Shown here piece by piece: positions 16,441 to 25,327 of a DNA stretch of 36,070 bases. Both the position numbers and the translations under genes were made by a program. The first letter of the stretch is position 1. Each line of letters begins with the position of its first letter. A model generated the notes under the pieces. That model saw only the letters and a program-made list of their open reading frames with translations, was not told the origin of the DNA and did not search any database. This DNA comes from Campylobacterota bacterium (GTDB taxonomy: Bacteria; Campylobacterota; Campylobacteria; Campylobacterales; Sulfurovaceae): NCBI GenBank assembly GCA_003252535.1, contig QKDN01000073.1, positions 1 through 36,070 on the forward strand. The letters run 5' to 3'.

Positions 16441-17004
16441 CTAGCCGAAGAGTTTTTTCATAGCGCCGAAGAACATTTTCATCAGACCCCTGTCTTCGAG
16501 CAGACCCGCAATATATTCATCATACGAGAGCCCTTTGGACTCAAGAAAATCAAGAAGATACTTCCGTGATCCTTCCATCCCCGATTCAGCCTCGATCTCG
16601 AGTAATTTGGCATAGATCGGCTGTAATGTTTCTACCGCCTGTCTCGGGGCGGCTTTCCGGAAAGCTGTGTAGCTGATGATATTGTTGGTGAGTCGGTCCT
16701 TTTTGGACTCGAACTCGGTGTAGACCCAGTAGTACCTGCCATCCTTGGCCAGGTTTTTGACTACAGCTACCATCTGTTGACCTGTCTGTATCCTCTCCCA
16801 CATAAGTTTGAAGAGAATTTTAGGCATATCGGGATGCCGTATGATGTTGTGTGGTTTTCCAATGAGCTCGGCTTGTTTGTAGCCGGAAATCTCGACGAAA
16901 TAGTCATTGCCGTAGGTGATGATACCTTTTGGGTCTGTTTTGCTTACGATATAGCGTTTCGTATCGAGGCTGATCTCTTTGTTGGTGGGTTGAGGCTGTT
17001 GCAT
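16441..17004 (-). CDS. Soluble PAS-domain protein, Aer/CetB type
   Basis: 187 aa from ATG 17004, chosen because AAAGGAG lies seven bases upstream; an upstream in-frame ATG at 17037 has no signal. Residues about 15-125 form one PAS domain. NIIRHPDMPKILFKLMW is the signature of the FAD-binding PAS of Aer and CetB energy-taxis proteins, and KDGRYYWVYTEF completes the domain. There is no HAMP, no signalling domain and no membrane helix. The C-terminal 60 residues are helical and end MKMFFGAMKKLFG. CetB-type proteins work with a separate chemoreceptor partner. It is divergent from the CZB-like gene at 17128. Confidence 0.8.
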   Translation of the reverse strand: MQQPQPTNKEISLDTKRYIVSKTDPKGIITYGNDYFVEISGYKQAELIGKPHNIIRHPDMPKILFKLMWERIQTGQQMVAVVKNLAKDGRYYWVYTEFESKKDRLTNNIISYTAFRKAAPRQAVETLQPIYAKLLEIEAESGMEGSRKYLLDFLESKGLSYDEYIAGLLEDRGLMKMFFGAMKKLFG

Positions 17005-17086
17005 GAGATACTCCTTTCGTTCCGGATATTTTAGCACATTTTACAAAAGTTTGAATTTGCATGATAATTAATTAAATTAAAATATT

Positions 17087-17095
17087 TGGTATAAT
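17087..17095 (+). promoter_or_regulatory. Extended -10 promoter for the CZB-like gene
   Basis: TGGTATAAT is an extended -10 element with a perfect TATAAT (17090-17095), 33 bases before the ATG at 17128. The upstream sequence is A/T tracts without a consensus -35, as is common in Campylobacterota. Confidence 0.65.
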
Positions 17096-17127
17096 ACTTT
17101 TAAATATATTGAGCGAGCGAAGATTCC

Positions 17128-17589
17128 ATGACAAAAGCAGAGTTGCTAAACGATATCAAGAAATACAATTCCACCCACGACAATCGTCTGAAAATAATAG
17201 AAAATACGATCAGAGGGATCAATGGAGATAGCAACAGTTCATGTGTAAAACTCTCGGATTGTTCCATAGATATCTGGATGCGTCAGAATGAGCAGCTGCT
17301 CATCAAGGTATTCGACCCTGCATTGGTCAATGAACTCTATCTCTACCATGAAGAGTGGCATGATGAGAGTGCAAGGATATGTGAAGTATCGGCAAACCAT
17401 CATAAGAAAAATTCCGGCCTCTTCAAAAAGCTCCTGGGCACCAAGGATATGAAGATGCAGGGGGGTGAGCGGGATATGGCATTGGCATATCTTGATCATC
17501 TGAAGGAACTGACCGGCAAGATCGGCAAGATATTCGACAAAATGCAGAAAAGGGTCGCCGCGATGCCGGAAGAGATGTTTCCGGGATGA
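17128..17589 (+). CDS. Soluble protein with a CZB-like zinc-binding domain
   Basis: 153 aa without signal peptide or membrane helix. H17, C45, H74 and H78 reproduce the 3His/1Cys zinc site of chemoreceptor zinc-binding (CZB) domains; E. coli DgcZ uses H22, C52, H79 and H83. The local context DCSIDIWM and LYLYHEEWHDE also fits the CZB pattern (C..[x]W, HxxxH). CZB domains sense zinc or hypochlorous acid and are usually fused to chemoreceptors or diguanylate cyclases. Here the domain is followed only by a basic linker (about 90-110) and a helical tail. The gene is divergent from the PAS protein. The assignment is from my own pattern matching. Confidence 0.55.
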   Translation: MTKAELLNDIKKYNSTHDNRLKIIENTIRGINGDSNSSCVKLSDCSIDIWMRQNEQLLIKVFDPALVNELYLYHEEWHDESARICEVSANHHKKNSGLFKKLLGTKDMKMQGGERDMALAYLDHLKELTGKIGKIFDKMQKRVAAMPEEMFPG

Positions 17590-18685: not shown

Positions 18686-19540
18686 TCAGGTTTTCCCATG
18701 CCAGATCTTGTATGCTATATTGTTCTTTTCTTTATTTTTTACGGAATACATCAGATCGTCGGCCACTTTGACAGCTTCTTTGATATCATTGGGTATCTCC
18801 TCGAATGTCACGACACCGACACTGAAGGTGACCGGCCAATGCCTGTTGTCCATGCTTTTTTGCAGGAGAGAGCTTGCTTTGTGAAATGCATGTTTGGCAT
18901 CCTCCAGCGTGGTTTCAGGTAAAAGACATGCAAATTCATCCCCGCCAAGTCTTGCTACAGTATCGGATTGCCTCAGGGAGGAGCGCAGACAACCGGCCAC
19001 TTCGATCAGCACTTTGTCACCCCTAGCATGTCCGTATGTATCATTGATATTCTTGAAATCATCAATATCGATGTATGCCAGGGAAAAGACATGACCGTAT
19101 CTTTGTGATCGTACCAGCTCATTGGCAAGCTCGACATAAAAACTCCTGGAGCTACAGGCTCCGGTGAGATAGTCGGTATCAGCCGCCTCTACTTCGATCC
19201 TGTGGACATTCCGAAAGTTGGTAATGAGAAAAGCCGCGGTACTATAAGCGAACGCATACGGCACCCCATAATACAATATTAACTCGATCCCGAAAGGATG
19301 TTGAAATACCAACGAGCGTATGAGGATCAGGATCATAGTTGAGATCAATGCCAGTAAGATACCGGTTTTATCTGACCCATACCAGCTGGCGATGAGTATC
19401 GGAAAAATGTAAAACGGCTCCAGTACAAAGGACCGTCCGACAATTCCATATACAATACTCAAGACAAAAATAGACAGCAACGACAGGAGCCATATATTTT
19501 CCGACGAGCGATGATCCAGTATATGAAATATGGTTTTCAT
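18686..19540 (-). CDS. Membrane diguanylate cyclase (GGDEF)
   Basis: 284 aa from ATG 19540, preferred because GGAG lies nine bases upstream; ATG 19555 is in frame but lacks a signal. About residues 15-120 hold four or five membrane helices forming a small membrane sensor domain. The GGDEF domain covers about 125-284. RLGGDEFACLL is the intact catalytic motif, DIDDFKNINDTYGH the metal-binding region, and RQSD before it an allosteric I-site (RxxD). The protein should make cyclic di-GMP from GTP with product inhibition. It is a single gene with AT-rich codon use, convergent with DUF2238. Confidence 0.9.
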   Translation of the reverse strand: MKTIFHILDHRSSENIWLLSLLSIFVLSIVYGIVGRSFVLEPFYIFPILIASWYGSDKTGILLALISTMILILIRSLVFQHPFGIELILYYGVPYAFAYSTAAFLITNFRNVHRIEVEAADTDYLTGACSSRSFYVELANELVRSQRYGHVFSLAYIDIDDFKNINDTYGHARGDKVLIEVAGCLRSSLRQSDTVARLGGDEFACLLPETTLEDAKHAFHKASSLLQKSMDNRHWPVTFSVGVVTFEEIPNDIKEAVKVADDLMYSVKNKEKNNIAYKIWHGKT

Positions 19541-19671
19541 AACATTCCACTCCATATATTACCGATATAGTACATTCTTTCCATACAAGTCCTTCCGCCT
19601 ATACGGGCACTTGGTTACCTATTGTACTGATATGCGTGCACAATGTCAAGGATGCAGGGTCGGATCAACGG

Positions 19672-22450: not shown

Positions 22451-25327
22451 ATGAAAGATAAGAACTGGGCTATTGTACTATCGGCAGTATTTCTGATCGT
22501 CACGGCTGCTGCTGCCTGGCTCAATGTCAGCTACAAGAAGTACCAGAACGAGATCAATACTGAAAAAATATACAATAAGATCAGTGCCGCTCTTGTCAAA
22601 AAAGTCCAGACCCTGATAGAAGAGAAGAAGAACGCGACACTGACCATCTCCCTCGCCCTCGCACAGGACCATCTGCTCAAAGATGCGCTCACAGGCAATC
22701 TCGATATACGCACAGATCTTGAAAACTTCTCCCTGAAGCTTCGTGAAGAGACAGATTTCAAGAATGTATGGTTCCAGCTCGTCGACAGGAACGGGACGGT
22801 CGTATCGAGAAGCTGGAGCAGCGAGCGGGGTGACGATATCTTCAAGGTCCGCTCTTTCAAAGATATCACAAAGGTCCATACCTCTATCGATGTGGACAAA
22901 TACGACCTCTCCTTCCGTGCATTCGTCCCCCTTTTCGATGATGAAGAACATTTCCTCGGCTTCCTGGAGACGATCACACACTTCAACTCGATCGCGAAAA
23001 AGATCGACCAGGAGGGGTTTCGGTCGATCATAGTCGTGGACAAGGTCTACAGCAGGCAACTGATATACCCCTTCAGCGGTTACTTCGCCGACGAGTATTA
23101 TATAGCCAATAAAAATATAGAGTACGGTATCATAGATCATATCAGGGAGCACAGCGGCATAGCCGAATTCCTGGACTACAAGAGTAGCTACAGGATCGAT
23201 CACGATTACCTGATCGTCCACTATACCCTCTTTGATCAGAACAACAAACCGATGGCTTATATGCTGATGTTCCAGGAGCTTGGGCAGATCGATACCTCGT
23301 CGATCAGGAATATGAATCTTTTCGTCGATATATTCACACTGTTCGGGCTGGCAGCGCTGGGACTGCTCCTGGTACTGCTCTACAACAGGCACGGCAGGGC
23401 TTCCGAGAGCACTGTCAGCACAACAAGATACATCATCCTCTTTTCGATACTTTTCGCTTCGGTATCTCTTGTCTTCTATACGATCCTTGCCATCAGCTAT
23501 AAAAAGGAGAAAGAGGAGTTTTACAAACAGCACAATTTCGCCGTCTCCAAAGAGATGGACGTCATCAGGGAAAAATACAAAGTAATTGCCTCTTTTATGT
23601 ATCAGACGATCATTGACCATGCGGAGATCATACCGATCATGCAGGATGCATACGGCGATACCGTGACGAAAGAGAACGCCAGAAAAAGACTCTATTCACT
23701 CCTGGTAAGACACTACAGATACTTTGTTTCCAAAGGAATCCGGCAGCTCCATTTCCACCTGAAGAACAACGAAAGTTTTCTGAGGTTCCACAGGCCCGGC
23801 AGATACGGTGACAATCTCACCGGTATCCGTCAGACGGTCGAATGGGTCAATACCAACCATCTCCCGGTCGAAGGGTTCGAGGAGGGGAGGATATACAACG
23901 GTTTCCGGTATGTATTCCCCATCACTGACGGGAACAGCAGTACCATGAAACACCTGGGGAGTGTCGAGACCTCTTTCAGTGCCACATCGTTCATCCGGGA
24001 ATTTGGCCGTCTCTACAATGCCAAACTTGGATTTGTCATAGACAAGCATGTCGTCGATAATAAGGTGTTTACCAATGAACGGACCAATTATGTGATGAGC
24101 CCCATGAGCGATTTCTACTATGAGGGGAGTACCAAAGAGGAGCTTGAGCGTGAGTTCAGGCATATCGAGACACAGAAGCTCGATCATATCCAGCTGGCAG
24201 AGGTGGATCGCAGGATCTACAAAGGGGAGATATTTACCGTTTCATCATCTGATGAAAAGACTCTCTTTACGTTCATACCCCTCCACAATCCCGTCACAGG
24301 CAAGGTCGTAGCAGCTATCATCCTGCAAACACAGAACAATACGCTGCTGACGCATAAATATAACTATATCATCATCTTCATCATTGGGATCGTCCTGTTC
24401 CTGCTTGCGACGATATTCGTCTATCGGGAGTATCTCTCCAAGATACTCCTGAGAAATCTTTCTCTCAAGACCAGGAGGATTCTCGATACACAAAAATCCA
24501 TTATCGTTATCACCAACGGCAGGGAGATATACGATGTCAATAAGCGATTCCTGGATTTCTTCGGCTATGGAACTCTCCAAGATTTCAAAAAAGACTATAA
24601 ATGTGTCTGCCATCTTTTCATAGAGCATGGGAAGTATTTCGACCTGCGTGATGTCCCCGAGGGGACAAGCTGGGTCGAGTACCTCCAGCATATCCCAGAC
24701 AAGGACAGGGTAGTGCTCATCCGTGACAAAAGCGGCATCGAATACAGTATGGCGATCTCCTATGACTACTATGAGAACGAATACTACGTCGTGACCTTCA
24801 ATGATGTCAGCGGCACGATACAGGAGCGCAATATGCTCCAGAACAAGGTGATGGCAGACCCGCTGACCGGGGCGTACAACAGGGAGTTCTTCAATTCAAA
24901 TATCGAGAGGATCATCTACGAGACCGAAAAGCATTCGATGATGCTTGGTATCATCTATTTCGATATTGACCATTTCAAGCGCGTGAATGATACATACGGG
25001 CATGATGTGGGGGACTATGTCCTCAGGGAACTGGTCAAAAGGGTCAAGGAGTCTGTCCGGGAGAGTGATTACCTGATACGTTGGGGCGGTGAAGAGTTCA
25101 TCATCCTGATATCGGTAGATACCAACAGGGAGGTCAGGAGAGCTGCAGAGCATCTGCGGTCGATGATCGAACACCTGAAGCTTGAGCATATAGGAAGAGC
25201 CACCTGTAGTTTCGGGACGACGCTCTTCGACTACAAGCATGAAGATGTCCATTCGGCCATCAAACGGGCCGATGATGCGCTCTATCTCTCAAAAACCAAC
25301 GGCAGGAACAGGGTGACGGTAGGGTAG
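22451..25327 (+). CDS. Two-sensor transmembrane diguanylate cyclase
   Basis: 958 aa. TM1 at about 7-27 is followed by a first periplasmic sensor of about 250 residues, dCACHE-like. Two more helices lie near 288-308 and 325-348. A second periplasmic region, about 350-632, contains HFHLKNNESFLRFHRPGRYG, typical of the dCache_3 double sensory domain. TM4 is near 635-655, a PAS-like domain near 680-785, and a GGDEF domain near 795-958. RWGGEEF (near 878) is intact, with a RESD I-site upstream, so the protein should produce cyclic di-GMP under feedback. The ATG lies 24 bases after gmhA; AGG is a weak ribosome site. A paired stem with glmS closes its 3' end. Confidence 0.9.
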   Translation: MKDKNWAIVLSAVFLIVTAAAAWLNVSYKKYQNEINTEKIYNKISAALVKKVQTLIEEKKNATLTISLALAQDHLLKDALTGNLDIRTDLENFSLKLREETDFKNVWFQLVDRNGTVVSRSWSSERGDDIFKVRSFKDITKVHTSIDVDKYDLSFRAFVPLFDDEEHFLGFLETITHFNSIAKKIDQEGFRSIIVVDKVYSRQLIYPFSGYFADEYYIANKNIEYGIIDHIREHSGIAEFLDYKSSYRIDHDYLIVHYTLFDQNNKPMAYMLMFQELGQIDTSSIRNMNLFVDIFTLFGLAALGLLLVLLYNRHGRASESTVSTTRYIILFSILFASVSLVFYTILAISYKKEKEEFYKQHNFAVSKEMDVIREKYKVIASFMYQTIIDHAEIIPIMQDAYGDTVTKENARKRLYSLLVRHYRYFVSKGIRQLHFHLKNNESFLRFHRPGRYGDNLTGIRQTVEWVNTNHLPVEGFEEGRIYNGFRYVFPITDGNSSTMKHLGSVETSFSATSFIREFGRLYNAKLGFVIDKHVVDNKVFTNERTNYVMSPMSDFYYEGSTKEELEREFRHIETQKLDHIQLAEVDRRIYKGEIFTVSSSDEKTLFTFIPLHNPVTGKVVAAIILQTQNNTLLTHKYNYIIIFIIGIVLFLLATIFVYREYLSKILLRNLSLKTRRILDTQKSIIVITNGREIYDVNKRFLDFFGYGTLQDFKKDYKCVCHLFIEHGKYFDLRDVPEGTSWVEYLQHIPDKDRVVLIRDKSGIEYSMAISYDYYENEYYVVTFNDVSGTIQERNMLQNKVMADPLTGAYNREFFNSNIERIIYETEKHSMMLGIIYFDIDHFKRVNDTYGHDVGDYVLRELVKRVKESVRESDYLIRWGGEEFIILISVDTNREVRRAAEHLRSMIEHLKLEHIGRATCSFGTTLFDYKHEDVHSAIKRADDALYLSKTNGRNRVTVG

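Follow-up and report, generated by a model that had tools for sequence, protein, structure and literature searches.

Genes and Features at the Locus

The window, i.e., the whole stretch of 36,070 nucleotides analyzed here, contains two small genes transcribed away from each other and separated by a short AT-rich region. The preliminary description had placed two divergent reading frames here, and both were confirmed in the sequence. It had also listed four residues, H17, C45, H74, and H78, in one of the products, and these are present exactly as described. The following features were recognized:

16441..17004, minus strand: stand-alone Aer/CetB-type PAS protein, 187 aa (Pfam match, match to the Aer PAS domain, and start taken from the set of homologues), with a PAS core at residues 19-118, a long helix at 121-156, and a C-terminal amphipathic helix at 172-186
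17005..17127, no strand: shared divergent promoter region, AT-rich, 123 bp (sigma-70-like sites on both strands)
17128..17589, plus strand: CZB-family protein of 153 aa, stand-alone and four-helical, whose candidate Zn ligands are H17, C45, H74, and H78 (sequence, relatives, hhalign, and AF2 model)

The intergenic region contains promoter-like sites at positions 17040-17068 on the plus strand and 17067-17038 on the minus strand, both being consensus matches only. In total, 7 promoter-like sites were found in the scanned stretch, vs. 2.6 expected.

Stand-Alone Aer-Type PAS Protein

The listed start of the PAS gene is a GTG at position 17037, but homologues favor the ATG at position 17004, which yields a protein of 187 aa. 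This protein is soluble and has one PAS domain, found above the cut-off in both Pfam and NCBIfam (PAS_3, 6.2e-11). The best match for a profile of 24 PAS orthologues was the structure of the Escherichia coli Aer PAS domain (8dik, E = 9.6e-32). In the AF2 model (pLDDT 89), the PAS core is followed by the long helix and by an amphipathic C-terminal helix of low confidence.

In Aer, the flavin is contacted by H53, R57, W70, N85, and R115 (PMC9668731), which correspond to H52, R56, W69, N84, and R116 of the PAS protein. Residues H52, R56, W69, and N84 are unchanged in all 45 PAS partners of the paired loci described below, and R116 is unchanged in all 44 rows aligned at this position. Together with the match to 8dik, this invariant pocket upholds the earlier assignment of the protein to the Aer/CetB type. 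The PAS protein is predicted from these residues to bind FAD, as Aer and CetB2 do.

Other stand-alone PAS proteins of this type were also found. A related gene, encoding a protein of ~174 aa, lies inside nitrous-oxide reductase (nos)-looking clusters, between nosY-like and nosL/nosD-like genes (L083, L084, L130, L131, L133, and L134). Flavobacterium and its relatives also have genes for stand-alone Aer-type PAS proteins (L149-L175), which again suggests roles other than chemotaxis.

CZB-Family Protein

The 153-aa protein had been described as CZB-like, with a search against PF13682 proposed as the check. This search gave nothing for the protein itself: it has no match at E ≤ 1 to any Pfam or NCBIfam family, PF13682 included. 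It has no further domain and no fused output domain, unlike the HOCl-sensing CZB domains of TlpD and DgcZ. A first scan of the genome contigs with this protein gave no match. A family of ~150-aa proteins was retrieved with it as the query among 397 Campylobacterota genomes. PF13682 is matched by 23 of the 31 relatives paired with a PAS gene (best E-value 7.3e-11), several of them over the curated cut-off in the whole-genome search, and by all 18 stand-alone relatives that do not adjoin a PAS gene. The paired and unpaired groups align with each other at E = 1.7e-38 in a profile-profile comparison (hhalign). Because the relatives match PF13682 and the two groups align, the 153-aa protein is classified by homology as a CZB-family member, albeit a divergent one; its CZB-like identity is thus borne out through its relatives.

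The AF2 model of the protein (pLDDT 87) is a confident four-helix bundle, but fold searches do not distinguish it from generic bundles of helices. The best solved matches in VIA-align are generic helical bundles with Z of 13.3 or less, and the DosC middle domain scores 10.2. Foldseek with the model gave no match at E ≤ 0.001, and a sequence profile search of the PDB with the CZB alignment gave chance matches only.

A third CZB-like group, of ~190 aa, was also found (L120:4098-4670 in G000 C8; L215-L220). In these proteins the zinc cysteine is replaced by serine, and most of them have a C-terminal tyrosine/glycine/arginine motif (e.g., YFYGTRGRG). Genes of this group adjoin nifH genes in two genomes.

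Distribution of the Pair and Fate of the Zinc Ligands

Divergent pairs of PAS and CZB genes were found at 45 distinct loci, which come from 40 Campylobacterota genomes belonging to 12 genera and 5 families plus four MAG contigs that carry the label Sulfurimonas, Helicobacteraceae, or Sulfurovaceae. All the loci are head-to-head, with a median gap of 103 bp. Such divergent pairing is far above chance, and the two genes are therefore conserved neighbors.

The preliminary description had proposed that the pair forms a split redox and zinc/hypochlorous acid sensing unit feeding chemoreceptors or a nearby cyclase. The conserved divergent pair of stand-alone PAS and CZB proteins stands; a common role in sensing zinc or hypochlorous acid is not supported, and neither is the feeding of chemoreceptors. 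All four ligands are present in 26 of the 45 paired CZB proteins, and at least one is lost in the other 19. All or nearly all of the ligands are gone in the paired proteins of the genus g23, and the losses fall on several separate branches of the tree. The PAS partners of the ligand-poor proteins keep the flavin pocket. In the unpaired stand-alone CZB group, the four ligands are kept in most members. Since the pair and its flavin pocket persist even though 19 of 45 partners lack the full set of ligands, zinc or hypochlorous acid sensing does not appear to be the reason why the pair is kept throughout, or a function common to all pairs. The window's copy, with its ligands intact, may nevertheless sense zinc or hypochlorous acid.

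These counts also bear on a reading in which the pair is a split sensor of zinc/hypochlorous acid and redox state, with the Cys45-Zn site of the CZB protein as the primary input, the PAS protein as the second one, and no involvement of chemoreceptors. The complete site in the window protein and in more than half of the paired proteins agrees with it, and HOCl sensing has been reported for the CZB domains of TlpD and DgcZ (PMC6715182, PMC8262984). The ligand losses, nearly total in g23, speak against it, the more so as the 3His/1Cys motif is described as ubiquitous in CZB domains (Perkins et al., PMC8262984). We regard this explanation as unlikely.

Genomic Context and Phylogeny of the Pair

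The pair directly adjoins the ribA-hemB genes in several Sulfurimonas-like genomes, and in the window ribA-hemB lies ~2-3 kb from the pair, which suggests that the site by ribA-hemB is the ancestral position. The gene neighborhood is different in other families. On the tree, the paired CZB proteins are separated from the unpaired ones, with 4 label changes vs. 25 in shuffles. The unpaired rows placed among the paired proteins number three: the first sits close to the start of a contig, the next is an additional CZB protein beside the same PAS gene, and the last belongs to the genome G211, in which both genes are kept at separate places. In the genome G009 (L114:6593-8115), a PAS gene is flanked by CZB genes on both sides. 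Some genomes have a PAS orthologue without a CZB neighbor (L041, L047, L069, and L071). The median pairwise identity is 62% for the PAS proteins vs. 25% for their CZB partners; the CZB partner changes fast and the PAS protein slowly. The PAS orthologues without a CZB neighbor and the fast divergence of the CZB partner both weigh against the reading of the two genes as one signaling unit that is favored below.

Conservation of the pair could come from a shared promoter and co-expression alone. Two independent genes held together by a bidirectional promoter, for example a redox-regulated one, with products that are not partners, would fit the head-to-head arrangement and short gap seen at all loci, as well as the PAS orthologues that have no CZB neighbor. 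However, the pairing outlasts changed surroundings across five families, it goes with a single CZB group and not with CZB-only proteins at large, and G211 keeps both genes though they are separated. Hence, an explanation by the promoter alone seems improbable, slightly more so than the zinc-centered one.

Chemotaxis Genes in Genomes with the Pair

No MCPsignal, CheW, or flagellin domain was found by the domain search of the window genome, which is 99.95% complete. Among the 40 genomes with the pair, CheW is present in 20, and both CheW and flagellin are absent from the other 20. The latter comprise all seven genomes of the window's family, four genomes of the genus g50, and nine genomes of the genus g23. 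CetB-type PAS proteins are halves of bipartite chemoreceptors and work with MCPs (PMC2628428, PMC12442639). In the window genome the cognate MCP (CetA) of such a receptor is absent, as no MCPsignal domain is encoded there. With none of the three domains present, the pair cannot feed chemoreceptors in this genome; its output there is not chemotaxis, and the earlier proposal is refuted for the window genome.

In other Campylobacterota, Aer-type PAS genes overlap or abut genes for MCPs with a C-terminal CZB domain (L171, L176, L177, L179, L183, L186, L188, and L196). Two further loci, L181 (Campylobacter concisus) and L192, have this arrangement too, but there the tail of the PAS-adjoining MCP no longer matches CZB. 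These operonic genes were considered as support for PAS-CZB contact and dropped: eight genomes of motile relatives have ~65 CZB matches in larger frames vs. ~126 MCPsignal matches, so that roughly half of the MCPs carry CZB tails and the link does not clearly exceed background. On a contig assigned to Candidatus Gracilibacteria by binning (L135), an MCP gene and a PAS gene form a pair similar to those of Sulfurospirillum and Sulfurovum; this assignment is probably a binning error.

A further reading takes the divergent pair as the sensory half of an energy-taxis receptor of the CetAB type that docks on an MCP encoded elsewhere. In its favor are the known work of CetB-type proteins with MCPs, the operonic PAS paralogues, eight of them beside MCPs with a C-terminal CZB domain, and the CheW genes in half of the genomes. 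It is refuted for the window genome by its lack of MCPsignal, burdened by the 20 genomes without CheW and flagellin and by the background of CZB-tailed MCPs, and, although possible in motile relatives, very improbable overall.

Possible Link to c-di-GMP

Three fused CZB domains were found in the window genome, all on GGDEF-EAL or CZB-GGDEF-EAL proteins, along with 48 GGDEF matches. As a CZB domain has been found to control a cyclase (PMC8262984), these findings point, with low confidence, to c-di-GMP as the likeliest output in the window genome. Two GGDEF proteins are encoded near the pair: a predicted membrane-GGDEF protein (18686-19555, minus strand) and a dCache-PAS-GGDEF protein (22451-25327, plus strand). 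Neither is a constant neighbor elsewhere. A nearby cyclase as the constant partner was rejected, since the gene adjoining the pair varies between loci, and the earlier suggestion that the pair feeds such a cyclase is left weak. By motif, a GGDEF gene is adjacent to the pair at 5 of the 45 loci, and genomes of the non-motile genus g23 have 1-3 GGDEF matches each, with weak ones only in two genomes. Given these low numbers, an output through c-di-GMP cannot be general.

Proposed Role of the Pair

Because the pair is kept even in lineages without genes for swimming or chemotaxis, it is probably a signaling pair with another output. We therefore favor, as a probable though by no means certain reading, that the two genes form one conserved signaling unit in which an FAD-containing PAS redox sensor acts through a CZB-fold partner on a non-chemotaxis output. 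The PAS protein would bind FAD, the cofactor suggested by its pocket residues, and report the cell's redox or energy state. It would pass this state to the CZB-fold protein by direct contact, as the gene pairing suggests, and the four-helix CZB-type bundle would serve as an adaptor or partner and not as an obligatory zinc sensor. In the window genome, where the zinc site is intact, binding of Zn2+ or of an oxidant at Cys45 may be a second input. The output in the window genome is other than chemotaxis, and the likeliest target there may be the c-di-GMP enzymes, the only proteins of this genome with a fused CZB domain.

A broader proposal, more tentative and somewhat short of even, is that the pair is a chemotaxis-independent redox module, with the CZB fold dedicated to partnering a stand-alone Aer-type FAD-PAS protein and with a dispensable zinc site. 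In at least two Campylobacterota lineages, presumably the window's family and g23, this module would have outlived chemotaxis, which was lost completely, and it would drive another output. No description of the PAS-CZB conserved pair, or of its persistence without chemotaxis, was found in the open-access papers searched. CetB-type PAS proteins have so far been understood only as parts of chemoreceptors, and Aer-type redox sensing may have non-taxis outputs. The conserved pair gives the orphan CZB-only proteins and the orphan CetB-type PAS proteins a candidate partner each, and the natural zinc-less variants allow asking whether CZB folds signal without zinc.

Comparison with Known Systems

The closest parallel for the PAS domain is that of E. 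coli Aer (8dik), whose flavin-contact residues are the same as those invariant in the PAS protein. Unlike Aer, the PAS protein has no HAMP/MCP fusion and has a C-terminal helical extension. CetB and CetB2, which act with CetA in the energy-taxis receptors of Campylobacter jejuni and Magnetospirillum, are likewise small soluble PAS proteins of the Aer FAD type, with no output domain and an adjacent partner gene. In contrast to these systems, a CZB-fold protein takes the place of the MCP as partner at the window locus, the two genes are divergent and not co-transcribed, and some of the genomes with pairs of this type have no chemotaxis genes.

Among CZB sequences, 27.1% belong to a known subgroup of CZB-only proteins, to which no function has been assigned (Perkins et al. 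2021, PMC8262984). The window protein resembles them in being stand-alone and in having a complete 3His/1Cys site, but the group to which it belongs is tied to a PAS gene and has lost zinc ligands in 19 of 45 members. The DosC middle domain (PF21118, 4zvc), found in a diguanylate cyclase, is a four-helix bundle, as is the model of the window protein, and is CZB-like according to Pfam. Its Z of 10.2 to the CZB model is within the usual range for helical bundles and so not decisive, and, unlike the window protein, it is fused within the cyclase.
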